Assembly: GCF_000701365.1 (NCBI RefSeq)
Contig: NZ_JNIK01000011.1
Span: 372,001 to 436,000, forward strand
Source of the DNA: Blastococcus sp. URHD0036
Lineage (GTDB): Bacteria > Actinomycetota > Actinomycetes > Mycobacteriales > Geodermatophilaceae
DNA length: 64,000 nucleotides
Reading direction: 5' to 3'
Below the pieces are notes generated by a model. The model saw nothing but the letters and a program-made list of their open reading frames with translations, searched no databases and had not been told where the DNA came from. The position numbers and the translations under genes are program-made. Positions 131 to 57,219 of the stretch are shown here, one piece after another. How positions within the stretch are numbered: the first letter of the stretch is position 1; every line of letters begins with the position of its first letter.

Positions 131-1155
131 CCGCGACGTTCACCCTCCCGCCCGGGAGCGAGGCGACCGCACCGCCGGAGCGCCGCGGTCTGACCCGCGA
201 CGGCGTCCGGCTGATGACCGTGCGGCCCGCCGGCATCACGCACTCCGCGTTCCGCGACCTGCCCGACCTGCTCTCCCCGGGCGACCTGGTCGTCGTCAAC
301 ACCTCGGCGACGCTGCCGGCCCGGCTCGACGTCCGGCGGCGGGACGGCGTGCTCGTGCCGCTGCACGTCTCGACCACGCTGGACGACGGCGACTGGGTCG
401 TGGAGCTGCGCCGTCCGGACAACGACGGCCCGGACCTCGGCGCCGAACCGGACAGCACCGTGCAACTCCCCGACGGGCGGGCCCTGCGGCTGGTCTCCGG
501 ACACCCGGACGCCGGTCGCGGTTCGCGGCTGTGGCGGGCCCGGCCCGAGCCCCCGGTGTCGGCCCGCACGGTCCTCGCCCTGCACGGCCGGCCGATCACC
601 TACGGATACCTCCGCGGGCCGGTCCGGCTCGCCGACACCCAGAACGTGTACGCCACCGAGCCGGGCAGCGCGGAGAACGCCAGCGCCGGGAGGCCGTTCA
701 CCGACCGGCTGCTGGTGCGGCTCATGGCGCGCGGGGTGCCGGTCGTGCCCGTCGTCCTGCACGCCGGGGTGTCCAGCCCGGAGCTGCACGAGCCGCCCGC
801 GCCCGAGCGGTTCGCCGTCCCGGAGGTCACCGCGCGGCTGGTCACCGCCACCGCGCGGGCCGGCGGGCGGGTGGTCGCCGTCGGCACCACGGTCACCCGG
901 GCGCTGGAGTCGGCGACCGGGGAGGACGGCGTCACCCGGCCGGTGGTCGGGTGGACGCGCCTCGTGCTGGGTCCGGAGCGGCCCGCCCGGGTGGTGACCG
1001 GCCTGGTGACGGGTCTGCACGCGCCCGAGGCCTCGCACCTGCAGCTGCTCGAGGCGGTCGCCGGCGGGGACCTCGTGCGGCAGGCGTACGAGGAGGCCGT
1101 CGCCGAGCGCTACCTGTGGCACGAGTACGGCGACTCGATGCTCTTCCTGCCCTGA
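127..1155 (+). CDS. QueA-like S-adenosylmethionine:tRNA ribosyltransferase-isomerase paralogue
   Basis: 342 residues. Several QueA-family landmarks are visible: VVVNTSATLPARL near the N-terminus, a central LHAGVSS followed by HEPPAPERFAV, VVAVGTTVTRALES, and the C-terminal HEYGDSMLFL. Canonical QueA transfers the ribosyl moiety of SAM to preQ1 in tRNA, making epoxyqueuosine. This copy is divergent (VVNTSA instead of VVNDTRV, and NVYATEPGSAENASAGRPFT instead of the usual YQTVYA...AAPTAGLHFT), and actinobacteria of this kind usually lack the rest of the queuosine pathway. It may act on another substrate. It overlaps the upstream SDR gene by 4 nt. Its TGA stop is the left end of a long palindrome shared with the convergent FhuF-like gene. 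Confidence 0.75.
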   Translation: MTATFTLPPGSEATAPPERRGLTRDGVRLMTVRPAGITHSAFRDLPDLLSPGDLVVVNTSATLPARLDVRRRDGVLVPLHVSTTLDDGDWVVELRRPDNDGPDLGAEPDSTVQLPDGRALRLVSGHPDAGRGSRLWRARPEPPVSARTVLALHGRPITYGYLRGPVRLADTQNVYATEPGSAENASAGRPFTDRLLVRLMARGVPVVPVVLHAGVSSPELHEPPAPERFAVPEVTARLVTATARAGGRVVAVGTTVTRALESATGEDGVTRPVVGWTRLVLGPERPARVVTGLVTGLHAPEASHLQLLEAVAGGDLVRQAYEEAVAERYLWHEYGDSMLFLP

Positions 1156-1203
1156 TGTGGAGTGCGCGAGCGCAGGTTTCCTGCGCTCTGGCACTCCACA
1201 TCA
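1153..1203. terminator. Bidirectional inverted repeat, family A copy 1
   Basis: A 24-nt arm pair (1153-1176 and 1180-1203) with a TTT loop and only two mismatched positions. The core is AGCGCAGG/CCTGCGCT flanked by GGAGTG/CACTCC. The outermost bases are the TGA stop of the QueA-like gene and, on the other strand, the TGA stop of the FhuF-like gene. The position between convergent genes fits a shared terminator, although there is no T tract. Confidence 0.75.
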
Positions 1204-1914
1204 CCCGATGCGCTCGGCGGTGTCCTCGAGGAGGACCTGGCGCTCGAAGGGCGTCCGGCGGGGGCAGGAGGTGCAGGTCGGCTCGTGCGGCAGCCGGTAC
1301 AGCAGGCAGCACGAGGCGCGCTGGGTGAACCGCACCGCCCGCGGGCCGACGTCGACGTAGCGGGGTGCGGGCAGCGGTGCACCGACCGCCGCCGCGAGCG
1401 GGCCGGCCAGGGCGGTCACGGCCCCGACGTCCCCCAGCGCCCGCCCCAGCGCCAGCAGCCGGTTGGCGATCGAGTCGGTGGCGATCGCCCACAGCGGCGC
1501 CGGCCGCACCGCCCCCGCTTCGGCGACCGCCCCGATCACGGCCTCGAGCGTCTCGCGCAGCTCCGCCGCGACGTCGCCCCACGGCGCACCCGACACCGCG
1601 GCGACCGGGGTGCCGCCGGCCAGCAGGGTCAGCGACAGGTCCGGCAGCCGGGGCGACAGGGGGACGCCGGTGGCGAGGCCCGCCAGCGGCGGCGTCACGA
1701 GGACGGACGACAGGGAGTACCACCACACCGTCGCGAGCACCCGCCGGTCGTCGCTGCGGTACCGCTGCCCGAGCTCGGCGACCCGCTCCGCCGTCCACCC
1801 CGGGTCGGCCAGCAGCGGCCCGGGGACGACGCTGCCGACCGGCGGCGCGACCAGGCCGAGAGCACCGGCGCCGGGCACCCGCGCGGCCACCGCCGCCTGC
1901 CCGCCGTCCGTCAC
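1201..1914 (-). CDS. FhuF-like 2Fe-2S protein (siderophore-iron reductase family)
   Basis: 237 residues from the GTG at 1914. The C-terminus carries CC-x10-C-x2-C ([16 protein letters not shown]), the four-cysteine signature that holds the 2Fe-2S cluster in FhuF, a cytosolic reductase releasing iron from ferric siderophores. A start further upstream at 1971 is possible, but it would run into the acs promoter region. The GTG at 1914 has a CAGACT -10-like box 6 nt ahead of it, which suits a leaderless message. No siderophore transport genes are nearby, so the substrate is unknown. It is convergent with the QueA-like gene and divergent from acs. Confidence 0.8.
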
Positions 1915-1970
1915 GCGCCCAGTCTGACCGGGCCCGGGGCAGCACCGTCGCAGCGGGCGGCGCGGAGCCA

Positions 1971-1991
1971 TACGGTGTGCTCCAGAGCACG
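1971..1991 (+). promoter_or_regulatory. acs promoter -10 with CRP-like palindrome
   Basis: TACGGT (1971-1976) fits an actinobacterial TANNNT -10. It overlaps the palindrome TGTGCTCCAGAGCACG (1976-1991). The GTG-N8-CAC spacing equals that of the CRP/GlxR consensus TGTGA-N6-TCACA. A site over the -10 and transcription start would be expected to repress. A CRP gene lies 8 kb away in this window. Confidence 0.55.
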
Positions 1992-2018
1992 TCGAGCCGC
2001 GCAGAGCTGGAGGGATCG

Positions 2019-3968
2019 ATGACCGAGTCGACCGAGGTGGAGGGCCGTCGCTTCCCGGTCCCGGCGGAGCTGGCCGCGCACGCCAACGTGGGGCCGGACG
2101 TCCACGCCGAGGCCGAGCGCGACCGGCTGGCGTTCTGGGAGACCCAGGCGCGCCGGCTGACCTGGACCCGGGAGTGGGACGAGGTGCTCGACTGGAGCAA
2201 CCCGCCCTTCGCGAAGTGGTTCGTCGGCGGCACGCTCAACGTCGCCTACAACTGCGTCGACCGGCACGTCGAGGACGGGCACGGCGACCAGGTCGCCTAC
2301 CACTGGGAGGGCGAGCCGGGCGACACCCGCACGATCACCTACGCCCAGCTGCAGGACGAGGTGTGCAAGGCCGCCAACGCCCTGCTGGAGCTCGGGGTGG
2401 CCGCCGGCGACCGGGTCGCGATCTACATGCCGATGATCCCGGAGACGGTCATCGCGATGCTGGCCTGCGCCCGCATCGGCGCCGTGCACATGGTGGTGTT
2501 CGGCGGCTTCTCCGCCGACGCCCTCGCCAGCCGGCTCGACGACGCCGGCGCCGTCCTCGTGATCACCGCCGACGGCGGCTACCGCCGGGGGGCGCCCAGC
2601 GCGCTCAAGCCGGCCGTCGACGACGCGGTGGGCCGCAGCCCCGGCGTCCGCAACGTCCTCGTGGTGAAGCGCACCGGCCAGGACGTCGAGTGGACCGAGG
2701 GCCGCGACCTCTGGTGGGACGACGTCGTCGAGCGCCAGTCCACCGAGCACAGCTGCGAGTCCTTCGACGCCGAGCACCCGCTCTACATCATGTACACGTC
2801 GGGGACGACGGCGAAGCCCAAGGGGATCCTGCACACCAGCGGCGGCTACCTCACCCAGGTCGCCTACACGCACTGGGCGACCTTCGACCTCAAGCCCGAC
2901 GACGACGTCTACTGGACGGCGGCCGACGTCGGCTGGGTGACCGGCCACAGCTACATCGTCTACGGGCCGCTGGCCAACCGGGCCACGAGCGTCATGTACG
3001 AGGGGACGCCGGAGACCCCGCACCGCGGCCGCTGGTTCGAGCTGATCGCCAAGTACGGCGTGACCATCCTCTACACCGCGCCGACGGTGATCCGGACGTT
3101 CATGAAGTGGGGCGAGGACATCCCGGCCGGCTTCGACCTCTCCTCGCTGCGCGTCCTCGGCTCGGTGGGCGAGCCGATCAACCCCGAGGCCTGGCTCTGG
3201 TACCACGAGCACATCGGCGGCGGCCGCTGCCCGATCGTGGACACCTGGTGGCAGACCGAGACCGGCGCGCACATGATCACGCCGCTGCCCGGGGTCACCG
3301 ACCTCAAGCCCGGCTCGGCGCAGACGCCGTTCCCCGGCATCAGCGCGAAGATCGTCGACGACGAGGGCAACGAGCTCGGCGACGACACCACCGGCCTGCT
3401 CGTACTCACCGCGCCCTGGCCGTCGATGCTGCGCACCATCTGGGGCGACGACGACCGCTACGTCGACACCTACTGGTCGCGGTTCGGCAAGGAGGTCTAC
3501 TTCGCCGGCGACGGCGCCAAGAAGGACGCCGACGGCGACATCTGGTTACTCGGCCGCGTGGACGACGTCATGAACGTCTCCGGCCACCGCATCTCCACGA
3601 CCGAGGTGGAGTCCTCGCTGGTCGGCCACCCCGCCGTCGCCGAGGCAGCGGTGGTGGGCGCCAGCGACCCGACCACCGGCCAGGGCATCGTCGCGTTCGT
3701 GATCCTCCGCGAGAGCGGCACCGACTCCGGCGACGAGCTGGTGCAGACGCTGCGTACCCACGTCGGCCGCGACATCGGCCCGATCGCCAAGCCCCGGCAG
3801 ATCATGGTCGTGCAGGAGCTGCCCAAGACCCGGTCGGGGAAGATCATGCGCCGCCTGCTGCGCGACGTGGCCGAGAACCGGGAGCTGGGCGACGTCACCA
3901 CGCTCACCGACTCGTCGGTCATGAACCTGATCAAGGACAAGCTCCCGGCGGCCCCCTCCGAGGACTAG
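2019..3968 (+). CDS. acs: Acetyl-CoA synthetase
   Basis: 649 residues, the usual length for AMP-forming acetyl-CoA synthetase (acetate + ATP + CoA to acetyl-CoA), a cytosolic enzyme of acetate scavenging. The ATG at 2019 follows a GGAGGGAT ribosome binding site. Visible motifs are the AMP-binding [20 protein letters not shown] (A5), [10 protein letters not shown], and the C-terminal [11 protein letters not shown], whose lysine (about residue 608) is the position acetylated by Pat-type acetyltransferases and freed by sirtuins. The P-loop reads SGTTAKPKG where the common form is SGSTGKPKG. The protein ends with a normal C-terminal swivel domain. A CRP-like palindrome sits at the promoter and a family A hairpin follows the stop. 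The position next to the holin/ephE/marP block matches acs (Rv3667) in M. tuberculosis. Confidence 0.97.
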
Positions 3969-3970
3969 TC

Positions 3971-4011
3971 CGGAGTGTGGGAGCGCAGGAAACCTGCGCT
4001 CCCACACTCCG
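3971..4011. terminator. Inverted repeat, family A copy 2 (acs terminator)
   Basis: Perfect 19-bp arms, CGGAGTGTGGGAGCGCAGG and its complement, with an AAA loop, starting 2 nt after the acs stop. The next gene runs in the same direction from 4114, so this copy separates two co-oriented units. Confidence 0.8.
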
Positions 4012-4113
4012 TCCGGGGGACACCGGGACGCGGACGGGACGGCGATCCGGCACGATCACCGATGACAGACGTGGTGGCCAGCGGGCCGCCGCCCGACCGA
4101 GGAGGAGCCACTC

Positions 4114-4620
4114 GTGGCCCACAGCGCATCCACGACCCCGCCCCCGAGTCGGCCCACCGGCACCGTCGACCCGTCGATCGGGACCCTGGTCCAGAGCGCG
4201 ATGGCCGACGTCTCGACGCTCATCCGCAACGAGATCGAGCTCGCCAAGGCCGAGGTCGGGAAGTCGGCGAAGAAGGCCGGCATCGGCGCGGGGGCCTTCG
4301 GTGCCGCCGGCGTCGTCGCGGGGTTCTCCTTCTTCTTCCTCTTCATCGCGATCGCCGAGGCGCTCACCGCACTCGGCCTGCCGCGGTGGCTCTCCTACCT
4401 CATCGTGTGGGTGTTCCTGCTGGTCGTCGCGGGCGTCGCCGCGCTGCTGGGCCGGCGCTTCATCAAGAAGATCGAGAAGCCCGAGCGGACCCTGGAGTCG
4501 CTGCGCGAGCTCCCCGACGTCATGCACCGCGAGGCGCCCGGCCAGCGCCGCCGCGACCTCCCGGTCGTGGCCCCCGGCGGCCAGGTCACCCGCCGCGACC
4601 CCGACACCTACCTGGTCTGA
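4114..4620 (+). CDS. Phage-holin-family (superfamily III-like) membrane protein
   Basis: 168 residues from a GTG preceded by GAGGAGG. The N-terminal 30 residues are Pro/Ser/Thr-rich, followed by an amphipathic stretch (TLIRNEIELAKAEVGKSAKKAG). Two membrane helices follow (about residues 50-80 and 88-112), then a basic C-terminal tail. This layout is that of the actinobacterial 'phage holin family' or Holin-X proteins, which are chromosomal and not tied to prophages; function is unknown. In M. tuberculosis the equivalent position (Rv3669) is also a membrane protein between acs and ephE. The next gene starts 10 nt downstream. Confidence 0.8.
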   Translation: MAHSASTTPPPSRPTGTVDPSIGTLVQSAMADVSTLIRNEIELAKAEVGKSAKKAGIGAGAFGAAGVVAGFSFFFLFIAIAEALTALGLPRWLSYLIVWVFLLVVAGVAALLGRRFIKKIEKPERTLESLRELPDVMHREAPGQRRRDLPVVAPGGQVTRRDPDTYLV

Positions 4621-4630
4621 CGCCTCCCCG

Positions 4631-5560
4631 GTGACGTCTCCGGCAGCCGAGGCGCCCGACGCCACCAGCGTCCTGCTCCCTGGCCCCTGGTCGCACCGGG
4701 CGCTGTCGGCCAACGGTCTGCAGCTCCACGTCGCCGAGGCCGGCGAGGGGCCGCTGGTGGTGCTCCTGCACGGCTTCCCGCAGTTCTGGTGGACCTGGCG
4801 GGCCCAGCTGCCCGCGCTGGCCGGCGCCGGGCTGCACGCCGTCGCCCCGGACCTGCGGGGATACGGGGCCAGCGACAAGCCGCCCCGCGGTTACGACCTG
4901 CCGACCGCCGCCGCCGACGTGGCCGCGCTGATCCGCGCCCTCGGGGAGAAGGACGCCGTCCTCGTCGGTCACGACTGGGGCGCGCTCGTCGCCTGGACCG
5001 TCGCGGCGCTGCACCCGCGCAGCGTCCGCCGTCTCGTCGTCCTCTCCATGGCCCATCCCCGGCGGCTGCGCGCCGGGATGGCCGATCCCGCGCAGCGCCG
5101 GGCGTTCCGCTACTTCCTGGGCGCCCAGCTCCCGCGGCTGCCGGAGCGACGGCTCACCCGCGCCGACGACGACCCGGTGGCGGACCTGATGCGCGCCTGG
5201 TCGGGGACGGAGTGGGCGCAGACCCCCGACTTCGCCGAGGCCGTCGACCGGTACCGCTCGGCCGCCCGCATCCCGCAGGCCGCCTACGGCTCGATGGAGT
5301 ACTTCCGGTGGGCCGGCCGCTCCCAGCTGCGCCCCGACGGGTTGCGGTACGCGCGGCGGATGGCGGCGCCGATCACCGCGCCCACCCTCCAGCTGCACGG
5401 TGGCGCCGACGCGTGCGTCCTGCCCACCACCGCGGCCGGCTCGGGGCGCTACGTGGCCGGCGCCTACGAGTTCGCCACGCTGCCCGGGGTCGGCCACTTC
5501 CCGCAGGAGGAGGCGCCCGGCGCGGTGACCGACGCGATCACCCGGTGGGCCAGGAACTGA
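4631..5560 (+). CDS. Alpha/beta hydrolase, epoxide hydrolase type (EphE position)
   Basis: 309 residues from a GTG at 4631. The oxyanion motif HGFPQFWWTW is followed by GHDWGA, where the nucleophile is Asp, the hallmark of epoxide hydrolases and haloalkane dehalogenases rather than serine esterases. The catalytic His is in GVGHFPQEEAP. A cap-domain region with Tyr/Trp residues lies between (YRSAARIPQAAYGSMEYFRW). Synteny with M. tuberculosis ephE (Rv3670) beside marP supports the call. The natural epoxide is unknown. It is convergent with marP, with a hairpin between them. Confidence 0.85.
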   Translation: MTSPAAEAPDATSVLLPGPWSHRALSANGLQLHVAEAGEGPLVVLLHGFPQFWWTWRAQLPALAGAGLHAVAPDLRGYGASDKPPRGYDLPTAAADVAALIRALGEKDAVLVGHDWGALVAWTVAALHPRSVRRLVVLSMAHPRRLRAGMADPAQRRAFRYFLGAQLPRLPERRLTRADDDPVADLMRAWSGTEWAQTPDFAEAVDRYRSAARIPQAAYGSMEYFRWAGRSQLRPDGLRYARRMAAPITAPTLQLHGGADACVLPTTAAGSGRYVAGAYEFATLPGVGHFPQEEAPGAVTDAITRWARN

Positions 5561-5571
5561 ACCACCTCCGT

Positions 5572-5612: not shown

Positions 5613-5615
5613 CCG

Positions 5616-14531: not shown

Positions 14532-17009
14532 ATGTCGACTACAGCTGCCCCCTCCCGCTCCGCCACCCTGGCGAAGCTCGCGGGGACCATCGTCCTGGCC
14601 GGCGCCCTGGTCGCCGGCGTGATGCTGCCCTTCGTGGGCGGCACCGGCCTGGTGGCGCGGAACTCCGCGTCCCTGCTGGACGCCCTCCCCGTGGAGCTCA
14701 CCGACGCCACGCCCGCGGGCAACAGCCGGGTGCTGGCCGCCGACGGCTCCCTCATCACGATGTTCTACGACAACAACCGCACCGTGGTGACCGGGGACCA
14801 GATCGCGCCGGTCATGAAGGACGCACTGGTCGCCATCGAGGACTCGCGCTTCTACCGGCACAACGGCCTCGACGTGCAGGGCACCCTGCGCGCGCTGGTC
14901 ACGAACGTCGCCGCCGGTGAGGTCGAAGAGGGTGGCTCGACGATCACCCAGCAGCTGGTCAAGCAGACGCTGATCGAGACCGCCGACAGCACGGAGGAGA
15001 TCGAGGCGGCCCGCGAGCAGGACGGCGCGGCCGGTGTGTCGCGCAAGCTCCGCGAGGCGCGGCTGGCGCTGGCTCTCGAGGAGACCTACAGCAAGGACGA
15101 GATCCTCACCCGCTACCTGAACATCGTGTACTTCGGGGAGGGCGCCTACGGCATCCAGGCCGCCGCCCAGAGGTACTTCAGCGTCAACGCGATCGACCTG
15201 ACGCTGCCCCAGGCCGCGATGCTGGCCGGACTGGTGCAGAGCCCCACGAACGACGACCCGGTCAACCACCCCGAGGCCGCGGTGGAGCGCCGGGACGAGG
15301 TCCTCAGCCGGATGCTCGACCAGGAGTACATCGAGCAGGCCGACCACGACGCGATCGTCGGCACCCCGGTGGAGGTGGTGCAGGGCCAGTCCCCGCCCAA
15401 CAACTGCGTCGACGCCGCGATCGGCGGCTTCTTCTGCGCCTACCTCGAGCAGTACCTGAGCGGCACGCTGGGGCTCACCGACCAGCAGATCCGCAGCGGT
15501 GGGCTGACCATCCAGACGACCCTGCGGCCGGACATGCAGGCCGCCGGCGACCAGGCGGTGCTCAACACCCTGCCGATGGGCGACCCGCTGGCCGCGATGT
15601 ACACCAACGTCGAGCCCGGCACCGGGCACGTCCTCGCGATGAGCGTGAACCGCGTGTTCGGCTGCGACGCCAACCGGCCCGAGTGCGAGTCGGTCGTGCT
15701 GAACACCGCCGCCAGCCAGGGCGCCGGATCGACGTACAAGGTCTTCACCGCCGCCGCCGCCCTGGAGCGCGGGTTCTCGCAGTTCTTCACGCAGACGACC
15801 GGCGACCCCTACGTCTCCCGGGTGTACCGCGGACCGTGCGAGGGCCGGAACACCAACGGGATGTACTGCGTGCGCAACGCGGGCAACTACCCGGCGACGC
15901 TGGACATGGAGCAGGCGCTCTACATGTCCTCCAACACCTACTTCCTCGCGCTCGAGGACGCGCTGGGCAACGTCGAGGGCCCGGTCCGGATGGCCGAGCG
16001 GATGGGCATGCACTTCACCACGACGTCGGGTGACGACATCATCGCGGAGAACCGCGGGTCGTTCACCCTCGGCGCCGAGGCCACCAGCCCGCTGGACCTG
16101 GCGTCGGCGTACTCCACCCTCGCCGCGAACGGCACCCGGTGCGACCCCACCCCGGTCACCGCCATCCTCGACCGCAACGGGGACCCGCTGCTCGGTGACG
16201 ACGGCGAGCCGGTGGTCAAGGGCGACACCTGCGCCGCCCAGGCCATCCCGCCGGGCGTGGCCACCACGCTCAACCAGATGCTGCGCCGGGACGTCGAGCC
16301 CGGGAACCCGGGTCAGACCGCCTCCCGCGCGTTCATCCCCGGGCACCAGATCGCCGGCAAGACCGGCACCTCGCAGAGCAACTTCTCGGTGGCGTTCGTC
16401 GGCTACACGCCCCAGTACACGGCGAGCGTCATGGTGCTCAACCCGAAGCAGAACCAGAACGTCGGCGGGTTCGGTGGCGGCAAGGGCGCCACGATCTGGC
16501 ACGACGCGATGGCGCCCATCCTCACCGGCCAGCAGATGGTCCCCTTCCCGCCGGCGGACCCGGTGGTGCAGAACGGCAACACGCGTGCGGTGCCGGGCTG
16601 CTCGACGGTGAGCGGCTGCCAGCAGGCCATGAGCGCGGCCGGGCTGCGGTTCGAGACGGCGTCGGTCGACAGCAACCGGCCCGAGGGCACCGTCGTCGGC
16701 ACCAACCCGCCGGCCGGCGGCCGTGCGATCCAGGACCAGGTCGTGACCATCCAGGTCAGCAACGGCTCGGACTACGTCGCGCCCGCCCCGGAACCCGCAC
16801 CCGCGCCGCAGACCGCCCCGCCGGCGTCACCGTCGCCGCCTGGACCGGGCGGTGGCGGCAACGGCAACGGCGGCGGGGGGAACGGCGGCGGCGGCGGTCC
16901 CGGCCCCGGTCCAGCACCGGGCACCACCGCGCCCGGTGCCACCGCGCCCGGTGCCACCGCGCCCGGCGCCACCGACCCCGGCACCGTCCCACCCACCCCC
17001 GGCGGCTGA
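14532..17009 (+). CDS. ponA2: Class A penicillin-binding protein with PASTA domain (PonA2 type)
   Basis: 825 residues. A short cytoplasmic tail and one membrane helix (about 15-38) precede a GT51 glycosyltransferase domain (EDSRFYRHNGLD, GGSTITQQLVKQ, YLNIVYFGEGAYGIQAAA). The transpeptidase has active-site STYK, SSN and KTGTSQ motifs. One PASTA domain follows (near residues 685-760; TASVDSNRPEGTVVGTNPP). The C-terminus is a low-complexity Pro/Gly tail with three identical ATAPG units. It polymerises and cross-links peptidoglycan outside the membrane. M. tuberculosis PonA2 (Rv3682) is in the same place and also ends in a PASTA domain. The TGA stop forms one end of a palindrome shared with the convergent YqeY gene. 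Confidence 0.95.
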   Translation: MSTTAAPSRSATLAKLAGTIVLAGALVAGVMLPFVGGTGLVARNSASLLDALPVELTDATPAGNSRVLAADGSLITMFYDNNRTVVTGDQIAPVMKDALVAIEDSRFYRHNGLDVQGTLRALVTNVAAGEVEEGGSTITQQLVKQTLIETADSTEEIEAAREQDGAAGVSRKLREARLALALEETYSKDEILTRYLNIVYFGEGAYGIQAAAQRYFSVNAIDLTLPQAAMLAGLVQSPTNDDPVNHPEAAVERRDEVLSRMLDQEYIEQADHDAIVGTPVEVVQGQSPPNNCVDAAIGGFFCAYLEQYLSGTLGLTDQQIRSGGLTIQTTLRPDMQAAGDQAVLNTLPMGDPLAAMYTNVEPGTGHVLAMSVNRVFGCDANRPECESVVLNTAASQGAGSTYKVFTAAAALERGFSQFFTQTTGDPYVSRVYRGPCEGRNTNGMYCVRNAGNYPATLDMEQALYMSSNTYFLALEDALGNVEGPVRMAERMGMHFTTTSGDDIIAENRGSFTLGAEATSPLDLASAYSTLAANGTRCDPTPVTAILDRNGDPLLGDDGEPVVKGDTCAAQAIPPGVATTLNQMLRRDVEPGNPGQTASRAFIPGHQIAGKTGTSQSNFSVAFVGYTPQYTASVMVLNPKQNQNVGGFGGGKGATIWHDAMAPILTGQQMVPFPPADPVVQNGNTRAVPGCSTVSGCQQAMSAAGLRFETASVDSNRPEGTVVGTNPPAGGRAIQDQVVTIQVSNGSDYVAPAPEPAPAPQTAPPASPSPPGPGGGGNGNGGGGNGGGGGPGPGPAPGTTAPGATAPGATAPGATDPGTVPPTPGG
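16926..16970 (+). repeat. Three 15-bp tandem repeats in the ponA2 tail
   Basis: Three copies of ACCGCGCCCGGTGCC (the third with one change) at 16926, 16941 and 16956 encode the TAPGA repeats of the Pro-rich tail. Slippage could vary the tail length. Confidence 0.85.
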
Positions 17010-17022
17010 GCCGGCCGGCTCA
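17007..17022. terminator. Perfect 16-bp palindrome joining two stop codons
   Basis: TGAGCCGGCCGGCTCA is its own reverse complement. Its first three bases are the ponA2 stop and its last three, on the other strand, the YqeY stop. A short candidate for a bidirectional terminator. Confidence 0.5.
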
Positions 17023-21105: not shown

Positions 21106-22910
21106 GTGACCGCCTCTGCTCCGTCGTCCGCCCTCTCCCCGGAGGTCACCGCCCGCTGGCAGGCCCGGTTCCGCGCCCCGCGGGTCAGCCTGCCCGACTG
21201 GGCGCTGGAGGCCCCGCACCGCAACCTCTACTCCTCCGACGTCAGCGGCGTCGTCGAGCAGTACGCCTGGGACCGCACGACCGACGTCCACCGGCAGGCC
21301 ACCGACCGGCCCAACGGCACGCTGATCGGCACCCTCTCCCCCGACGGCGAGACCATCTGGTGGTTCGCCGACACCGACGGCGACGAGTTCGGCGTCTGGA
21401 TGGTGCAGCCCTTCACCGGTGGCGAGGACCGCGTGGCGGTCCCGGAGGTCGGCCCGGCCTATCCCGCCGGGCTCGAGATCGGCGACACCGTGGTGGCGGT
21501 GGGCCGCTCCACCGACGACGGCAGCGAGCTGTGGCTGGCCCCGGTCGGTGGCTCCCCGCGGGTGGTCTACCGGCACGCCGACCCCGCCTCGGTCGACGCG
21601 CTGACGTACGACGAGGACCTGCTGGTGATCTCGCACTCCGAGCACGGCGACCCGCGGTACCCGGCGCTGCGCGTGCTGCGGACCGGGGACACCACGCTCG
21701 AGACCCCCGCGGTCGTCGCGGAGAAGTGGGACGGCGACGGCCGCGGGCTGCACGCCCTGGAGTTCGCGCCGCTGACCGGCGACCGCCGCCTGCTGGTGGG
21801 GCACGAACGGCGCGGCCGCGAGGAGCTGCTGGTCTGGGACGTCGAGGCCGACACTGAGACCGAGATCGTGCTGGACCTGCCCGGCGACGTGACCGCGGGC
21901 TGGTACCCCGACGGCTCGGCGCTGCTGGTCGGCCACGACCACGCCGCCCGCAGCGACGTCTACCGCTACGACCTCGCCACGGGGGCGCTGGAGCAGCTGG
22001 AGACCCCGCGCGGCGTCGTCCGCGGCGCCACGGCCCGGCCCGACGGCTCCGTCGAGCTCGCCTGGTCCTCGGCCGAGCTGCCGCCGGTGATCCGCCGGGC
22101 CGACGGTCCGGTCGTGCTGGCCGCGCCGGGCGAGGAGCCGCCGGCCGCCTATCCGGTCGAGGACCGCTGGGTGCCGGGACCGGGGGGCGACATCCACGCG
22201 CTCGTCGTCCGTCCGGCCGGCGAGGCGCCGTACGCGACCGCGTTCCTGGTGCACGGCGGCCCGGAGGCGGCCGACGACGACTCCTACCGCGCCCGGCGGG
22301 CGGCCTACGTCGATGCCGGCTACGCGGTCGTGCACGTCAACTACCGGGGCTCCACCGGCTACGGCAGCACCTGGCGGGACGCGCTGACCGGCCGCCCGGG
22401 ACCGACCGAGCTGGAGGACGTCGCCGCCGTCTACGACGCCCTGGTCGACGAGGGCTTCCTCGATCCCTCGCGTGCCCTGATCACCGGCGGCTCGTGGGGT
22501 GGCTTCCTCACCCTGCTGGGTCTCGGCACGCAGCCGGAGCGGTGGGCGGCCGGCATCGCCGAGGTGCCGGTGGCCGACTACCTCGCCGCCTACGAGGACG
22601 AGATGGAGGGGCTGCGCGCCTACGACCGCGCCCTCTTCGGCGGCTCACCGGACGAGGTGCGGGACGTGTACGTGCGGTCGTCGCCCATCACGTACGTCGA
22701 GCAGGTGCGCGCGCCGGTGCTCGTGGTGGCCGGCGCCAACGACCCGCGCTGCCCGATCCGGCAGATCGACAACTACCTGGGTGAGCTGGAGCGGCTGGAG
22801 AAGCCGCACGAGGTGTACCGCTTCGACGCCGGCCACGGCTCCCTGGTCATCGAGGAGACCATCCGGCAGGTCGAGCTCGCGCTGGACTTCGCCCTCCGCC
22901 ACGTGAAGCC

Positions 22911-22914
<4 letters not shown>
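21106..22914 (+). CDS. S9-family serine peptidase (prolyl oligopeptidase type)
   Basis: 602 residues. The N-terminal two thirds form a beta-propeller-like region with repeated TxDGxELW/SPDGETIWW segments. The C-terminal alpha/beta hydrolase domain has the nucleophile GGSWGGFLT, Asp in VVAGANDPRCP and His in DAGHGSL. S9 peptidases cleave short peptides or acyl-amino acids in the cytosol; no signal peptide is seen. A GTG at 21106, 9 nt after GGGGAAG, is preferred over an in-frame GTG at 21085 that would overlap the upstream gene. The stop TAG begins the palindrome shared with asd. Confidence 0.92.
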
Positions 22915-25328
<2,414 letters not shown>

Positions 25329-28796: not shown

Positions 28797-28827
28797 GTGC
28801 TCTGCCCCGTCTCACGGGGCAGAGCAC
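28797..28827. terminator. Inverted repeat, family B copy 1
   Basis: Perfect 14-bp arms GTGCTCTGCCCCGT/ACGGGGCAGAGCAC with a CTC loop, 53 nt after the membrane-peptide stop. Confidence 0.75.
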
Positions 28828-28857
28828 AAGGGGCGGCCGGCGCGCATACACCGCGCG

Positions 28858-28899
28858 ACGCTCGTGCTCTGCCCACGGCTGTGGGCAGAGCACGAGCGT
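28858..28899. terminator. Inverted repeat, family B copy 2
   Basis: Perfect 19-bp arms (ACGCTCGTGCTCTGCCCAC and its complement) with a GGCT loop, in tandem with copy 1 thirty bases away. Copy 3 is at 37940-37979. Confidence 0.75.
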
Positions 28900-28954
28900 C
28901 CACAGGAGGACATGACGGCCCACCGGGGCCGGCACCCGGATCGACGATCCCCGT

Positions 28955-37939: not shown

Positions 37940-37979
37940 CGCTCGTGCTCTGCCCACCATGGTGGGCAGAGCACGAGCG
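37940..37979. terminator. Inverted repeat, family B copy 3
   Basis: Perfect 19-bp arms built on GCTCGTGCTCTGCCCACC with a 2-nt AT centre. Lies between the ABC-F stop and the mnhA start, both on the minus strand, so it should end ABC-F transcription. Confidence 0.8.
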
Positions 37980-39840: not shown

Positions 39841-39881
39841 CGGAGGAGATCCGCCGGTGTGACCCCGGCGGATCTCCTCCG
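39841..39881. repeat. Inverted repeat in the divergent ABC-F / GNAT promoter region
   Basis: Perfect 17-bp arms CGGAGGAGATCCGCCGG (39841-39857) and complement (39865-39881), 7-nt spacer. Unlike the other long repeats it lies between divergent genes, upstream of both starts, so an operator or insulator is as likely as a terminator. Confidence 0.7.
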
Positions 39882-40001: not shown

Positions 40002-40775
40002 ATGACCAGCGCCGCACCCGCCCCCCGCTCGTCCGGGGGCGACCGACGCGATCCGGCCCAGCGGCTCCGCCTGGTGGCCCTGACCCCGCCACCGGCGCCC
40101 TCGGGGGTGTGGTGGGCACGGATCGCCGACAGCGGCCCGGAGTCGCGGGAGCACGCCCTCGTCGCCGTCGGCTCCGGGCGCTTCGCCGCCGGGACCCCCG
40201 TGGACATGACGGCACTGCAGGCGGGGGGCCGGCGGCCGGCGGGCTGGCTGGTCGAGGTCGGCTACCGGACCGTCGACGGCGCGGTCGTGCGGCTCGTCCC
40301 CTCCGAGGACCTCAGCGACCGCTGCCCGACGCTGTGGTTCGCCGAGCTGCACCACGCCACCAGCCCGATCGCGGCGTCCTCGCTGCTGGCCTTCACCGGT
40401 GGGCCGTTCCGGGCGGGCGCGGTGGTGACCCCGCGCGAGGTGGCCGCGGCCGGCCTGCGGATGGCCGACCGCATCGGCGAGGTCCGCTGGTACAACCGCT
40501 CGGGGATCGTCGACGACGTCCGCGTCGCCCCGGCGCTGCGCCGCCGCGGGATGGGCACCCTGCTGGTCACCGCGGCCGAGGCGCTGGCGGTGCTGCGCGG
40601 CTGGGCACCGCTGCGCAGCGACGGCCGGCTCACCGACGCCGGCGCCGCCTGGCTCGAGGCCGCGCCGCCGGCCTGGCGGCCGCGGCTCGCCGACCGCAGC
40701 GAGGTCCTGCCCGACCCCGACGCGGCCGTCGACGAGCCGGTCGGCGTCACCCGCCTGCTCAAGGACTACGCCTGA
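40002..40775 (+). CDS. GNAT-like hypothetical protein
   Basis: 257 residues, ATG after CGGAGG. The only recognisable element is VAPALRRRGMGTLLVTAAEALAVLRG near residue 180, which resembles the acetyl-CoA-binding R-x-x-G-x-G/A motif of GNAT acetyltransferases. The rest (WLVEVGYRTVDGAVVRLVP, WFAELHHATSPIAA) is not diagnostic. Conserved-looking actinobacterial protein of unknown function. Confidence 0.65.
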   Translation: MTSAAPAPRSSGGDRRDPAQRLRLVALTPPPAPSGVWWARIADSGPESREHALVAVGSGRFAAGTPVDMTALQAGGRRPAGWLVEVGYRTVDGAVVRLVPSEDLSDRCPTLWFAELHHATSPIAASSLLAFTGGPFRAGAVVTPREVAAAGLRMADRIGEVRWYNRSGIVDDVRVAPALRRRGMGTLLVTAAEALAVLRGWAPLRSDGRLTDAGAAWLEAAPPAWRPRLADRSEVLPDPDAAVDEPVGVTRLLKDYA

Positions 40776-51839: not shown

Positions 51840-52904
51840 ATGAGCACGCCCCGCGGCTGGCGCCGACTCGCCGCCGCCCTCTCCCTGACCGCCCTCGTGA
51901 CCGGCCTCGCGGCCTGCGGCGACGACGACAACTCCTCCGGTGGGGACGGCGGCGAGAAGTCGATCCGCATCGCCTACCAGGCCTTCCCCAGCGGTGACCT
52001 GATCGTGAAGAACCAGGGCTGGCTGGAGGAGGCGCTGCCGGACTACGACATCGAGTGGACCCAGTTCGACTCCGGCGCCAGCATCAACACCGCCTTCGTC
52101 GCGGGCTCCGTCGACATCGCCGCGATCGGTTCCAGCCCGGTCGCCCGCGGCCTGTCCGCGCCGCTGGACATCCCGTACCAGGTGGCGTGGATCCTCGACG
52201 TCGCCGGTGACAACGAGGCGCTGGTGGCCCGCGAGGGCACCGGCATCGAGTCCGTCGAGGACCTCGCCGGCCACAAGGTCGCGACGCCGTTCAGCTCGAC
52301 CTCGCACTACAGCCTGCTCGCCGCACTCGACCAGGCCGGCGTCGACAGCGCGGACGTCGACCTGATCGACCTGCAGCCGCAGGACATCGTCGCCGCCTGG
52401 GACCAGGGCACCATCGACGCGGCCTACGTGTGGCTGCCCGCCCTGGACCAGCTCCGCGGGTCCGGCACCGACCTCATCAGCAGCCGGGAGCTCGCCACGA
52501 ACGGCAAGCCGACCCTGGACCTCGGCGTGGCCTCGACCGAGTTCATCGAGGGCGACCCCGAGGCCATCTCGGCCTGGCGGCAGGTCGAGGCCCGCGCGCT
52601 GCGGCTGATCGCCGACGACCCGGACGCCGCCGCCCAGGCCGTCGCCGAGGAACTGGGCATCGACCCCGCGGACGCCGCCGACCAGCTCACCCAGGGCGTG
52701 TTCCTCGACCCGACGGAGCTGACCAGCGAGGAGTGGCTGGGCACCCCGGACGCACCGGGCAACCTGGCCGCGAACCTCGAGGACGCCGCGCAGTTCCTCG
52801 TCGAGCAGCAGCAGATCCCCGAGGCCCCGTCCCTGGAGGACCTCCAGGACGCGATCTACCGCGAGGGACTCGAGGACGACGTGGCAGCGAGCGCCGGTGA
52901 CTAG
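51840..52904 (+). CDS. ssuA: Sulfonate/taurine ABC transporter substrate-binding lipoprotein
   Basis: 354 residues. Lipoprotein signal ending LVTGLAACG, then a Type II periplasmic-binding fold with [37 protein letters not shown], and [16 protein letters not shown]. Closest in pattern to TauA. Captures sulfonates for the SsuCB transporter. Its last 8 nt overlap ssuB. Confidence 0.9.
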
Positions 52905-53739
52905 GACGACCGACAGGACGCCGTTCCCGGCCGGGGACTCCTCCCCGGCCGGGGCGGCGCCCCTGCGCACCGGAGGGGCGCCGCTGTCGATCTCCGCCGT
53001 CTCCCACTCCTACGGCAAGGGAGCGGACGCCGTCCCCGCCCTCGGGCCCGTGTCGCTGGAGGTGCCGGCCGGCGAGTTCCTCGTCCTGGTCGGCCCCTCC
53101 GGCTGTGGCAAGAGCACCCTGCTGCGCCTGCTCGCCGGCTTCGAGGCGCCCACGAGCGGCCGGCTGCTGGTCGGCGGCGAGGAGCCCGAGCCCGGCCGGC
53201 AGGCCGGTGTGGTGTTCCAGCAGGCGCGGCTGCTGCCCTGGCGGACCGTCGGCGGCAACGTCGACCTGGCGCTGCGGCTGGCCGGGGTGCCGCGCGAGCA
53301 GCGCCCCGCCCGCGTCGAGCAGCTGCTGGACCGGGTGGGCCTGGCCGGCACCGCCGGGCGCCGCACCTGGGAGATCTCCGGCGGCCAGCAGCAGCGGGTC
53401 GCGATCGCCCGCGCCCTGGCCGGGTCCGCGCCCGTCCTGCTGCTCGACGAGCCGTTCGCCGCGCTCGACGCGCTCACCCGCGAACGGCTGCAGGAGGACG
53501 TCCGCCAGGTCTCGGCCGAGACCGGCAACACCTCGGTGTTCGTGACCCACAGCGTCGACGAGGCCGTGTTCCTCGGGTCCCGGGTCGTCGTCCTGACCCG
53601 GGCCCCGGGCACCGTCGCGCTCGACCTCGAGGTGCCTCTGCCGCGCTCCGGGCTCTCGCCCGACGACCTGCGCGGCCTGCCCGAGTACGCCGCCCTGCGC
53701 GCCGAGATCGGCGCCGCCGTCCGCTCCGTCGCCAGCTGA
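52897..53739 (+). CDS. ssuB: Sulfonate/taurine ABC transporter ATPase
   Basis: 280 residues, GTG start within ssuA. Walker [11 protein letters not shown]-loop [12 protein letters not shown], signature ISGGQQQR, Walker [13 protein letters not shown] and switch His [10 protein letters not shown]. NitT/TauT family ATPase. A 30-residue Pro/Gly/Ala-rich N-terminal extension precedes the domain. Confidence 0.94.
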
Positions 53740-53759
53740 CCGCTCCGAAGGGACCCCGC

Positions 53760-54626
53760 ATGACTCTCACCACCGCCACCCGCGCGCTCGCCGTCGAGCG
53801 CCTCGGTGCGTACCACGGTGCCCGGATCACCGACGTCGACCTGGCCAGCGCGTCCGACGAGACGCTGGCCGCGGTCCGCGCCGCGCTGGTCGAGCACAAG
53901 GTGCTGTTCTTCCCCGCCCAGTCCCTCGACCCGGACAGTCAGGTGCTGCTGGGCCGGCGGCTGGGCGAGCTCACGCCCTCGCACCCCGTCGTCCGTGGGC
54001 TGGACGACGAGCACCCGGAGATCTACTCCCTCGACGCCGCCGACAACGGCTTCGCCGACACCTGGCACACCGACGTCACCTTCGTGCGCCGTCCTCCACT
54101 CGGCTCGATCCTGCGCGCCGTCCAGCTGCCCCCGCTGGGCGGGGACACCAACTGGGCCGACGCCGAGGCCGCGTACGCCTCGCTGTCGGCTCCGGTGCGG
54201 GCGCTGGCCGACCAGCTGACCGCGGTGCACGACGGCAACCGCGAGTGGGGCTACCACCTGGCCCAGCGCGGCGGGAACCAGTGGGAGGACTGCGAGTACA
54301 CCCGCCTGGAGCCGGTCGAGCACCCCGTCGTCCGGGTCCACCCGGAGACCGGACGGCGCAGCCTCTTCGTCAACCCGGGGTTCACGTCGCACATCGCCGG
54401 GGTGTCGGAGGCCGAGAGCCGCGGCCTGCTCGACGCGTTCTACGCGCACCTGACCAAGCCGGAACACATCGTGCGGCACCGCTGGGCGGCCGGGGACGTC
54501 GCGATGTGGGACAACCGCTCGACGCTGCACTACGCCAACCGCGACTACGGCGACTTCCGGCGGATCATGCACCGGGTGACGCTGCGCGGTGACGTGCCGG
54601 TCGGCCCGGCGGCGATCGCGGGCTGA
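53760..54626 (+). CDS. TauD-like 2-oxoglutarate/Fe(II) dioxygenase
   Basis: 288 residues. The 2-His-1-Asp iron site is visible as WHTDVTF plus the distal His in MHRVTLRG; the 2OG-binding Arg follows. TauD/AtsK family: oxygenolytic release of sulfite from taurine or other sulfonates or sulfate esters. Last gene of the ssu unit, complementing SsuD to broaden the substrate range. Confidence 0.9.
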   Translation: MTLTTATRALAVERLGAYHGARITDVDLASASDETLAAVRAALVEHKVLFFPAQSLDPDSQVLLGRRLGELTPSHPVVRGLDDEHPEIYSLDAADNGFADTWHTDVTFVRRPPLGSILRAVQLPPLGGDTNWADAEAAYASLSAPVRALADQLTAVHDGNREWGYHLAQRGGNQWEDCEYTRLEPVEHPVVRVHPETGRRSLFVNPGFTSHIAGVSEAESRGLLDAFYAHLTKPEHIVRHRWAAGDVAMWDNRSTLHYANRDYGDFRRIMHRVTLRGDVPVGPAAIAG

Positions 54627-54635
54627 CCTGATCCG

Positions 54636-54677
54636 AGCGCGTCCTCCCTCACGGTCTGCGGTGAGGGAGGACGCGCT
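54636..54677. terminator. Inverted repeat between tauD-like gene and TPM gene
   Basis: Perfect 17-bp arms AGCGCGTCCTCCCTCAC and complement with an 8-nt loop, between convergent genes. Sequence unrelated to families A and B. Confidence 0.8.
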
Positions 54678-54702
54678 GCGCCGAGGGGGGGACGACGCCG
54701 AG

Positions 54703-56727
54703 CTAGAAGCGGCCGCTGCCGCCGCGCCGGCCGCCACCTCCGCCGCCACCCCCGCCCCCACCGCCGTGCCGGCGACCGGATCCGCCGAACGAACCGCCGC
54801 GGTAGCCACCGCCGCCGCCACCCCCGCCGAAGAGGATCCCGCCGAGCACGAGGCTGCCGATGTCCGGCCCGCGGCCGTAGCCGGGGCCGGCGAACCCGCC
54901 GCCGTAGCCACCGCCGCCGTAGCCACCGCCGCCGTACCCGCCGCCGGAGTTCCAGCCGGAGACGTCGGACTGGGCCCGCTGCAGGGCCTGCCCGGCGAGG
55001 GCATCGGCCTGCTGCGCCTCCTGCAGCGCGCTGACCGGGTCGGTGGCGGCCAGCCCGCTCGCCGCCGACAGGTGCCGCTCGGCCTCCGCCAGCCGGGTGC
55101 GGGCCTCGGCCCCGACGGCGCCGCGGCGGGTGGCGATGAAGTCACCGGCGGCGGCGACGGTCGAGCGGGCGTTGAGCAGCGCCTGGTCGAGAGCGGCCGC
55201 GGCGCGGCGGGCGCGGGTCTGCGCGTCGCGGGCCACGCCCAGCGCCTGCTCCAGCGCGATGTCGGCCTCCTCCAGCCGGCGCAGCGCGGTGAACGGGTCG
55301 GGCAGCGCACCCCCGGTCGTCGCCATCGCCTCGTCGGCGGCCACGATCGCGGCCTCGGCCCGGGCGATCTGCGGCTGGAGGCCACTGCGGTCGCCGGACG
55401 CGACGAGCGCCCGCGCCTCGGCGAGGTCCTGCTCGGTGTCGGCACGCGCGGCCGGGATCCGCTGCACCGCCGCCTCGAGGTCGGTCGCCAGCCGGCCGAT
55501 CGCGTCGAGGAGCTGGCCGGTCTGCACGACCGCGTCCTCGGCGGCGCGGATGTCGCCGACCGCGTCACCGGGCTTCCCCGCGTCGAGGCCGGTGCGGGCC
55601 TCGGTGACCTCCTGCTCGGCCGCGGCGAGCCGGGCCCGCGCCTGCTCGAGGTTGTCGGCGACCGGGGCGATCGCGGCCGGGGCGTACCGGCGCTGCAGCT
55701 CGCCCATCCGCTGCTCGTCGGCGGGGAGCCGGCCGTGCAGCGCGGTGATCCGGGGAGCCAGCGCCTCCAGCGCCTGCGGCGCGTTCTTCTCGAGGTCGCG
55801 CAACTGGTCGAAGGCATCGGCCTGCGCGTCGAGCCGGGCGTCCGCGGCGGAGGTCAGCTGCAGCATCTCGGTGAGCATCGCGCGGGTGGTCGGCTCGTCC
55901 TCCGGGATCTCGTCGTCGAGCTGCTGGCGGAGCGTGAACGCGCGGGTCAGCTCCTGCCGGGACTGGGCGAGCGCTTCGGTGAAACCGGTGACGGCGTCCT
56001 CGCCGTACTGGAGCCGGGCGAAGTCCAGATCCAGCTGCGAGCTCTTGACCGCCTCGTCGAGCTCGAGCAGGGCGGAACTCGCCTGCCCCTGGAGCGCATC
56101 GGTCGGCACGCCGGCGTGCGGGTCGGGCTTCTCCAGCCGCTTCACATCGGGGGCGGCGGACCTGCGACGGCGGGACCGGACGACGAGATAGGCCCCGCCA
56201 CCGAGCACCGCCAGGCTGCCGACGACGGCCACGGTCCCCAGTCCGCCGCCTCCACCTCCGGTCGCGTTCCCCAGCCCCTCGGCGAAGGCCACGGCGCCGG
56301 CCGCCCAGTTCTCGTCGGTGAACTGCGGCTCGACGTCGTCGGCGAGGAAGTCGTCGACCTCCTCCGTCGTGATGTCCGCGTCAGCGTCGGGGCCGATCAC
56401 GTAGGAGTACGCACGGTCGTCCACGGCCACCGCGAGCAGGACGTCGGACGACTCCAGGTTCGACTGCACCGCCGTCGCGTCCACCCAGTCGTCGGGGTCG
56501 ATGCCGTCGAAGGACTCGACGAAGACGACGACCATCTCGACGCCGTCGTCGGACTGCAGCGTCGCCACGGCGTCCTCGACGTCGGACTGCTCGGAGTCGC
56601 TGAGCACGTCCGCCCGGTCGTCGACCTGCCCGACGACGTCGACGGGGGGCTCGGCGAGGGCGGCCGGCCCGGTCAGGACCACCGCCCCGGCGACGGCGAG
56701 GACGACGGAGAACCTGCGGAGGACCAC
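54703..56727 (-). CDS. TPM-domain membrane protein with Gly-rich tail
   Basis: 674 residues from the GTG at 56727: MVLRRFSVVLAVAGAVVL begins a signal peptide cut after ALA. The TPM domain follows (about 25-160; DDRADVLSDSEQSDVEDAVATL, GVEMVVVFVESFDG), then one helix (LGTVAVVGSLAVLGGGAYLVV) and about 400 residues of cytoplasmic, mostly helical, Ala/Glu-rich sequence. The Gly-rich tail has YGGGG repeats (15-bp DNA units near 54895-54950) and ends in poly-Gly. TPM proteins are linked to envelope stress and PSII repair in others; function here unknown. TAGGGT lies 7 nt before the GTG, supporting it over an upstream start at 56799. Confidence 0.85.
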   Translation of the reverse strand: MVLRRFSVVLAVAGAVVLTGPAALAEPPVDVVGQVDDRADVLSDSEQSDVEDAVATLQSDDGVEMVVVFVESFDGIDPDDWVDATAVQSNLESSDVLLAVAVDDRAYSYVIGPDADADITTEEVDDFLADDVEPQFTDENWAAGAVAFAEGLGNATGGGGGGLGTVAVVGSLAVLGGGAYLVVRSRRRRSAAPDVKRLEKPDPHAGVPTDALQGQASSALLELDEAVKSSQLDLDFARLQYGEDAVTGFTEALAQSRQELTRAFTLRQQLDDEIPEDEPTTRAMLTEMLQLTSAADARLDAQADAFDQLRDLEKNAPQALEALAPRITALHGRLPADEQRMGELQRRYAPAAIAPVADNLEQARARLAAAEQEVTEARTGLDAGKPGDAVGDIRAAEDAVVQTGQLLDAIGRLATDLEAAVQRIPAARADTEQDLAEARALVASGDRSGLQPQIARAEAAIVAADEAMATTGGALPDPFTALRRLEEADIALEQALGVARDAQTRARRAAAALDQALLNARSTVAAAGDFIATRRGAVGAEARTRLAEAERHLSAASGLAATDPVSALQEAQQADALAGQALQRAQSDVSGWNSGGGYGGGGYGGGGYGGGFAGPGYGRGPDIGSLVLGGILFGGGGGGGGYRGGSFGGSGRRHGGGGGGGGGGGGRRGGSGRF

Positions 56728-56734
56728 GATGGCG

Positions 56735-56740
56735 ACCCTA
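56735..56740 (-). promoter_or_regulatory. TPM gene -10 box (leaderless)
   Basis: Minus-strand TAGGGT (56740 to 56735) ends 7 nt before the GTG at 56727. Confidence 0.55.
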
Positions 56741-56819
56741 CCGACGGCCCACGGTCGAGGACGGCCGTGAGCGGGTAGGGCGCAGCAGACCGCACGCACA
56801 CGACCGAGTTGGAGACGAC

Positions 56820-57179
56820 ATGGCCGACGAGCCCGACCGCATCCCCGCCGCCGAGCTCCCCCCGGGGACGGTGCGCCGGGTCGGCGACTGGGCGGTGGGC
56901 GACCGCGGCGGCGCCTACTTCGCCGTCTCCCGCCGGTGCCGGCACCAGCTGGCCGACCTCTCGGAGGGCGAGCTCGACGCCGAGGGCTGCCTGGTCTGCC
57001 CGTGGCACCAGAGCCGCTACGACGTCCGCACCGGCGAGATGGTCAGCGGGCCGAAGGGGTTCCTCGGCTACCACGGGCCCACGCCGGGCTACACGCAGTT
57101 CGTCCGGAGCTACGGGAAGTACCTCAAGCTGCGCGTCCGCCGGGCCCTCCGCCGCGGCGACGACGTCGTCCTCGAGTAG
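56820..57179 (+). CDS. Rieske 2Fe-2S protein
   Basis: 119 residues, ATG after GGAGACGAC. The cluster motif is CRH...CPWH (C-x-H-x17-C-x2-H). Stand-alone soluble Rieske ferredoxin-like domain with a basic C-terminus (RVRRALRRGDD). No oxygenase or reductase partner is adjacent. Convergent with the peptide transporter ATPase; a family A repeat separates them. Confidence 0.9.
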   Translation: MADEPDRIPAAELPPGTVRRVGDWAVGDRGGAYFAVSRRCRHQLADLSEGELDAEGCLVCPWHQSRYDVRTGEMVSGPKGFLGYHGPTPGYTQFVRSYGKYLKLRVRRALRRGDDVVLE

Positions 57180-57180
57180 T

Positions 57181-57219
57181 GGAGTGCGACAGCGCAGGAA
57201 TCCTGCGCTGTCGCACTCC
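57181..57219. terminator. Bidirectional inverted repeat, family A copy 4
   Basis: Perfect 19-bp arms GGAGTGCGACAGCGCAGGA and complement around a single central A. Begins 2 nt after the Rieske stop and ends 3 nt before the stop of the convergent ABC gene. Confidence 0.85.

Follow-up and report, generated by a model that had tools for sequence, protein, structure and literature searches.

Four near-identical palindromes lie at the ends of genes in a 64,000-nucleotide stretch of the Blastococcus sp. URHD0036 genome (the window; the genome itself is called G000 below). Are they terminators that work without a T tract, or a dispersed repeat family adopted as gene-end punctuation? An earlier note on the window left the choice between these two, and took compensatory changes in the arms to suggest that the hairpin or cruciform itself is selected. 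We have followed the palindromes through the genome and to the orthologous junctions of related species.

The window copies and their class

All four palindromes are confirmed, at 1153–1203, 3971–4011, 22910–22960 and 57181–57219; the third had been placed at 22911–22959, correct in position and one base short of the true stem on each side. The last three have stems of 19, 24 and 18 bp, respectively. A 3-nt loop is present in each copy and the variable inner positions had been described correctly, as had the two mismatches of copy 1, which fall at pairs 8 and 9 from GGAG. The half-arm GGAGTGNGNNAGCGCAGG has seven perfect matches in the window, every one within the four copies. Hairpin energies predicted for the window copies are −38 to −53 kcal/mol on either strand, and when the window was searched for RNA families at the gathering threshold a tRNA was the sole match. 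Independent gene calls put the neighbouring stops at 1155/1201, 3968, 22914/22956 and 57179/57222, adjoining or overlapping all four copies; the gene-end location is thus upheld, as is the convergent setting of three of the four, that at 3971 being tandem. The coordinates are collected in Table 1, together with a fifth element of another type.

Table 1 The 39-bp (GGAG-39) elements of the window and their neighbouring genes
Element	Position	Strand	Setting	Genes and stops
GGAG-39, subfamily A1	1159..1197	.	convergent gap; two inner mismatches; stem extends outward over both stops (1153-1203)	queuosine biosynthesis protein, stop 1153-1155; FhuF-type protein, stop 1201-1203
GGAG-39, subfamily A1	3972..4010	.	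tandem; 3 nt past stop	acetyl-CoA-synthetase-like gene
GGAG-39, subfamily A1	22916..22954	.	convergent gap; stem 22910-22960 spans both TAG stops	peptidase, stop 22912-22914; semialdehyde dehydrogenase, stop 22956-22958
GGAG-39, subfamily A'' (GGAGGAGATCCG...)	39842..39880	.	divergent gap; exception to stop-adjacent rule	
GGAG-39, subfamily A1	57181..57219	.	convergent gap	Rieske protein, stop 57177-57179; ABC-transporter, stop 57222-57224

The four copies represent a single subfamily within a wider class, overlooked in the earlier note, whose length is fixed and whose inner arms can be exchanged. A search for GGAG...CTCC palindromes of 29–55 bp in 2.18 Mb from nine genomes (with some overlap) found 121 of 39 bp and none of 38 or 40–47 bp; 111 of the 121 are stop-adjacent. 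A pyrimidine precedes and a purine follows the palindrome (Y..R flanks) in 118 of the 121, compared with 3 of the 31 palindromes of other lengths. Nineteen of these 31 are 33-mers, which we take, as a set rather than copy by copy, to be nested in the A'' type. The class can be written Y|GGAG-N31-CTCC|R: 39 bp with GGAG/CTCC ends, two inverted arms of 17–18 nt and a centre of 3–5 nt. At least four inner-arm types occur, assigned by a simple script rule or by eye: A1 (core AGCGCAGG), A2 (core RGCGAGG), A' (GGAGTCGC...) and A'' (GGAGGAGATCCG... and similar). An attempt to cluster all hairpins by single linkage on shared 10-mers was given up, as it strung together families that are unrelated.

Over whole genomes, GGAGT-N29-ACTCC is found at 47 places in G000, 20 in G001, 46 in G002, 18 in G008 and 2 in G003, with 0–2 in controls; inspection by eye recognised 42 palindromes among the 47 of G000 and 44 elements of type A' among the 46 of G002. 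The counts for GGAGG-N29-CCTCC, with the control in each case, are 25 vs 16 in G000, 16 vs 40 in G001, 17 vs 30 in G002, 14 vs 28 in G008 and 30 vs 20 in G003, where, the high control notwithstanding, 27 of the 30 are by eye palindromes with yet another kind of outer sequence, GGAGGCTG or GGAGGCC.

Among the groups examined, above-chance abundance is seen only in Geodermatophilaceae. The core pattern GGAG-N12-GGNNNCC-N12-CTCC has at least six matches in 12 of 66 family genomes and 0–4 in the other 54 (controls 0–6); the 12 include two with no sequences listed (G057, G062) and one, G010, in which some matches look fortuitous. In 132 genomes of the same order outside the family the count is 0–3, the same as in the control. 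An exact scan for the first subfamily, with one genome per species and possibly leaving out records near the window's own genome, gave eight stretches, all from Modestobacter, Trujillonella, Geodermatophilus or Blastococcus.

Position at gene ends and matching of the arms

A genome-wide search of the kind proposed in the earlier note, here with a 39-mer of 28 fixed bases and up to three mismatches, finds 30 places in the 5.18-Mb genome and none with the reversed control. Gene positions around them come from our own codon-usage caller rather than from an annotation, applied to 541,624 bases around the copies and to the window. With up to five mismatches allowed, subfamily A has 31 copies: 24 are convergent, 5 tandem and 1 divergent, and the last falls within a called gene, at its 3' end. 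In the convergent cases the gap mostly consists of the palindrome and 1–3 nt on either side up to the stops. Of 136 class members from five genomes, 77 have a stop within 12 nt on both sides, 46 on one side and 13 on neither, at least two of these 13 being in divergent gaps (39842 in the window and L044 9954); none of the 136 is well inside a called gene. The TGA of both genes is part of the arm, GGAGTGTGAG, at L050 and at L092, the orthologous locus of G001. The second option of the earlier note, that of scattered repeats taken up as marks of gene ends, is supported.

The same stretches hold 81 other convergent pairs. The gap is 15 nt or less in 38 of them and 37 of these are hairpin-free, so that such a hairpin is not required at convergent junctions; 26 of the 43 longer gaps have a hairpin. 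As these stretches were picked for family A, they overstate how many convergent pairs carry it; within the window the share is 3 of 10.

The arms of the 31 copies match closely. Of 558 pair cells, 525 are Watson–Crick, 5 G-T, 15 A-C and 13 other. Pairs 1–4, 16 and 17 are invariant, that is, GGAG at the ends and AG near the centre, and the most variable are pairs 7–10 and 13. For the A1 elements of G000 (n = 29), an average of 17.07 of the 18 pairs match, compared with 15.57 (SD 0.18) when arms are shuffled, a value reached in none of 5000 shuffles. This excess over arms drawn randomly from one subfamily and genome is seen in three sets, G000 A1 (n = 29) itself, G000 A'' (n = 18) and G002 A' (n = 42), with 0/5000 in each. 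The covariation described for four copies therefore extends past them. The selection that had been deduced from it is not established, since arm copying or palindrome replacement would also keep the arms matched, and such replacement of entire palindromes is seen between species.

Of 12 G001 places of subfamily A examined, 11 lie at G000 sites. In the 11 orthologous pairs there are 10 two-sided changes, all on pairs 5–10, and 19 one-sided changes scattered across pairs 5–18. Seven of the 10 two-sided changes, at four loci, replace one Watson–Crick pair by another; the pair at L104, which is out of register by an indel, contributes two of the 10 and none of the seven. Of 14 orthologous pairs compared, 11 of them with G001, four have TTT in one loop and AAA in the other, flips that look like inversion or template switching inside the palindrome. 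Sense-strand mismatches in 47 one-sided elements comprise 16 GU, 11 AC and 57 other, figures that do not separate RNA-level selection from DNA-level symmetry. In some elements the two arms differ in type and do not pair inside (12–13 of 18 pairs, and 8 of 18 in G056).

Exchange of arms at orthologous sites

At the G002 junctions orthologous to copies 1 and 3 a different palindrome of type A', GGAGTCGCTCGAGTGCG..., is found, again flanked by both stops. Elsewhere around the window elements, the gap orthologous to copy 1 measures 10 nt in G001 and contains one A'-like half, the stops overlap at the place of copy 3 in G003, which lacks an element there, the G001 place of 57181..57219 (L104 309) holds a decayed copy, and 39842..39880 is matched by one flank of a G002 A'' element.

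Of 47 G002 elements examined, 42 are of type A'. Thirteen of these have no G000 counterpart in the compared sequence, 6 face an element-free G000 place and 23 face a G000 element. In 22 of the 23 the G000 element is of another subfamily: the partners are A1 in 17 (3 with one arm unclassed), A2/A1 in 1, A2 in 1, A'' in 3 and A' in 1. As the G000 stretches were mostly chosen around elements, the ratio 23/29 is inflated and 23/42 is a safe lower bound; 18 of the 23 were mapped by both flanks and 5, less certain, by one flank only. At L084/L215, L038/L221 and L042/L214 the flanks are near-identical base for base up to the edge of the element; at other pairs they have diverged.

At six loci (L042, L043, L049, L052, L087 and L085) A-type arms are common to G000 and G001 and G002 alone deviates; at L085 they are also present in the other genera G003 and G021. 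This sharing makes it probable that A-type arms came first and that the exchange went towards G002. At L035, A1 has been kept in all three congeners. Identity at the acs locus is 89.8% for G000–G002, 87.8% for G000–G001 and 86.4% for G001–G002.

Sites may also be filled or empty. One junction has 43 nt with A1 in G000, a 1-nt gap in G001 and 42 nt with A' in G002. At the semialdehyde-dehydrogenase junction, where both genes are joined at 23 of 30 loci, most of the joined loci hold a strong hairpin, many of them of unrelated sequences, and three are tight and hairpin-free. Differing predicted hairpins are also found 3' of the acetyl-CoA-synthetase-like gene at 30 loci, and a 39-bp element is found there in G000, G008 and G003. 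The putative gene-end function of the hairpin is, on this comparison, interchangeable across unrelated sequences.

Function, known systems and alternatives

The best explanation, which we hold to be probable though far from secure, is that the elements are two-way mRNA 3'-end hairpins without a U tract, dispersed and homogenised by a copy-and-replace process. The positions, the fixed length, the flank rule, the arm matching and the exchange at orthologous sites are directly seen, and the 3'-end role and the machinery we infer. An element between convergent stops, or beside one, would fold to a GC-rich hairpin in the transcript of either gene. It would set the mRNA 3' end in both directions, with RNA polymerase stalled or released without a U tract, perhaps aided by Rho/Nus or in the manner of an 'I-shaped' terminator, and it would block 3'–5' exonucleases, the outcome being that neither gene is read through into its neighbour. 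An ongoing copy-and-replace process, by ectopic conversion or some mobilising enzyme, would keep the copies alike, swapping entire palindromes, or one arm alone, where an element already lies. A new arm type could in this way spread to most sites of a species without any change in where they lie.

The GC-rich hairpin soon after a stop codon is as expected of an intrinsic terminator. The U tract 3' of the hairpin is missing, as the earlier note had observed: three or more T in the next 8 nt are found at 1 of 62 hairpin ends (31 copies, both strands) and four at none. Among the structured transcript ends of S. clavuligerus, 353 highly structured ones without a U tract are reported vs 182 with one, and bidirectional transcript ends are known in Streptomyces (PMC8269248); low U content of terminators in high-GC actinobacteria is also described in PMC12207403, and by both papers structured ends lacking U are frequent in Streptomyces. 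The elements share a GC-rich stem without a U tract with these 'I-shaped' or bidirectional terminators, which, in the available text of both papers, are not described as a fixed-length repeat family. Intergenic stem-loops, some of them repeat families (Bor, Ype and Efa repeats), are likewise enriched at gene 3' ends and in convergent gaps of other bacteria (PMC1590033); these differ in species and sequence, and no fixed-length class with interchangeable arms is described in the available text.

REPs are the closest known kind. Like REPs and BIMEs, the elements are short multi-copy extragenic palindromes, many and dispersed, lying mainly 3' of genes, between convergent or unidirectional genes, and turning over in class between related species. 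REPs are found 3' of genes with different classes in related species (PMC3733652, PMC3686654, PMC2817692), the classes differing between orthologous RAYT loci (PMC3686654, PMC3733652), and CGTC REPs, too, have no known transposase (PMC3733652). The elements differ in their symmetric GGAG/CTCC ends, single 39-bp length, in-place exchange at orthologous sites and, in most convergent subfamily-A copies, stops 1–3 nt away. The flanks of the 31 copies carry no GTAG or CGTC end tag. They have Y at −1 in 62 of 62 ends, G at −2 in 47 of 62, and a stop codon; TAGC or TAGT beside some copies is a TAG stop and not a constant tag. RAYT/REP membership was rejected after PF01797, the model of the Y1/REP transposase, gave no matches in G000 and 13 relatives, with control genomes matching in 5 of 14. 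With both end tag and RAYT lacking, the elements are not filed as REPs. The main text of a recent REP survey (PMC12306157) does not contain 'Geodermatophil', and a literature search, mostly outside subscription papers, found no description of the elements. As for MITEs, no constant target-site duplication is visible by eye in the 31 flanks, the search for an enzyme having been for PF01797 only; a 4-bp CTAG duplication hinted at by copy 22916 was not upheld by the other flanks.

A link of the elements to a DUF559 gene lying between two of them, about 1 kb apart, was also considered. PF04480 matches a gene piece in L085 (E = 1.1e-8), and in L183 the called gene falls just under the curated cut-off. 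The link is weak because L085, L097, L182, L183 and L184 are, from their neighbour genes, one orthologous locus and because other closely spaced element pairs flank ordinary genes; the remnant apparently represents one old locus.

Outer bases and length are strict, the Y..R rule holds beyond the stem and some elements combine arms of two types. These features speak against a pure hairpin reading and suggest sequence recognition by some factor; arms of mixed type that are unpaired inside are not predicted by a pure hairpin function. We put forward, tentatively and with more doubt than conviction, an undescribed Geodermatophilaceae system for rewriting gene ends, in which a 39-bp palindromic cassette between stops would provide half-sites for a dedicated factor or be moved by an enzyme specialised in replacing it. 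Its arm code would drift between species, most sites of a genome being converted in place to the new code.

An unlikely but coherent alternative is that the arms are half-sites of a dimeric sequence-specific DNA protein (a nucleoid, topoisomerase or domain factor) acting where convergent transcription piles up supercoils, with species-wide arm change following a shift in the specificity of the protein. The fixed size, a Y..R rule reaching beyond the paired stem and the invariance of the GGAG ends and of AG at pairs 16–17 while pairs 7–10 vary would all suit such a protein, as would the confinement of all ten G000/G001 two-sided changes to pairs 5–10, the joining of different arm types within one element and the dominance of one type in G002 (42/47). 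However, the close coupling to stop codons better suits an RNA 3'-end role, the great differences between arm types would call for a very large number of coordinated changes in each genome, and several types stand side by side in G000.

We consider it improbable that the elements are selfish miniature elements of fixed size, moved by an undiscovered enzyme, for which gene ends are the least harmful insertion places and a terminator-like role is incidental. Subfamily waves, the junction that is filled in G000 and G002 and empty in G001, and a copy number varying strongly by genus and species (12 of 66 family genomes with at least six core matches, the rest with 0–4) are in its favour, but few copies are far from stops (13/136), no constant target-site duplication is seen by eye in the 31 flanks, the Y1 transposase is absent from 14 genomes (PF01797 being the model searched) and the 11 of 12 G001 places shared with G000 imply that movement is slow. 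Convergence of ordinary intrinsic-type terminators on an optimal GC-rich hairpin is strongly disfavoured: hairpins of unrelated sequence do occur at many comparable gene-end junctions, yet length, ends, flanks and long arms are the same at 30 places, arm types are lineage-specific and the pattern count outside the family is at chance level.

If the reading of the elements as two-way mRNA 3'-end hairpins is right, a small repeated cassette of fixed size sets transcript ends in these bacteria and is exchanged wholesale by species without moving. The elements would then be a natural experiment on two-way termination without a U tract in GC-rich bacteria and on the concerted rewriting of a dispersed repeat family without a known transposase, and the orthologous junction pairs, whether empty or holding A1, A', A'' or unrelated hairpins, would be material for testing what a gene end needs.

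Further hairpin families

Besides the GGAG-39 element, the 39-bp gene-end palindrome with GGAG/CTCC ends, a second hairpin family with the core GTGCTCTGCCCA is present in the genome of the window (G000), its congener G002, a genome of another genus (G003) and a further genome, G063. These hairpins are found mainly in tandem gaps, and the downstream gene is often the closer neighbour. A third family, of ~65 nt and with the outer arm GGCATAGGAAGC or similar, was found in several genomes.

Places of the two hairpin families (L-numbers, individual stretches from the genomes)
Family	Stretch	Position	Context
GTGCTCTGCCCA core	window	28797-28827	
GTGCTCTGCCCA core	window	28857-28900	
GTGCTCTGCCCA core	window	37940-37979	
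GTGCTCTGCCCA core	L044	13645	
GTGCTCTGCCCA core	L107, L108, L113, L121		
GGCATAGGAAGC type	L045	6494	
GGCATAGGAAGC type	L089	12914	
GGCATAGGAAGC type	L098	10026	
GGCATAGGAAGC type	L066, L078		3' of acs-like (acetyl-CoA-synthetase-like) gene

Other gene junctions

A long hairpin (TGATCATCGGCGGGTGGCTG...) occupies the same junction in two genera (L134 of G001, a second congener, and L136 of G066), where the congeners of G001 have GGAG-39 elements instead. At the junction at 40775/40789 of the window the gap is 13 nt in G000 and the stops overlap in G002, whereas the G001 orthologue, with convergent genes, carries five tandem GCAAYTCCGCGCTTCTG units. At 17007-17022 of the window, both convergent stop codons lie within a perfect 16-bp palindrome, TGAGCCGGCCGGCTCA.

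A DUF559 remnant

In L085 (8985-10050), a DUF559 gene remnant is flanked by two mixed-arm elements (GGAG-39 elements whose arms differ in type, with unpaired inner parts). Its counterparts in G001, G002, G003 and G021, the last from another genus, are apparently at the same locus.
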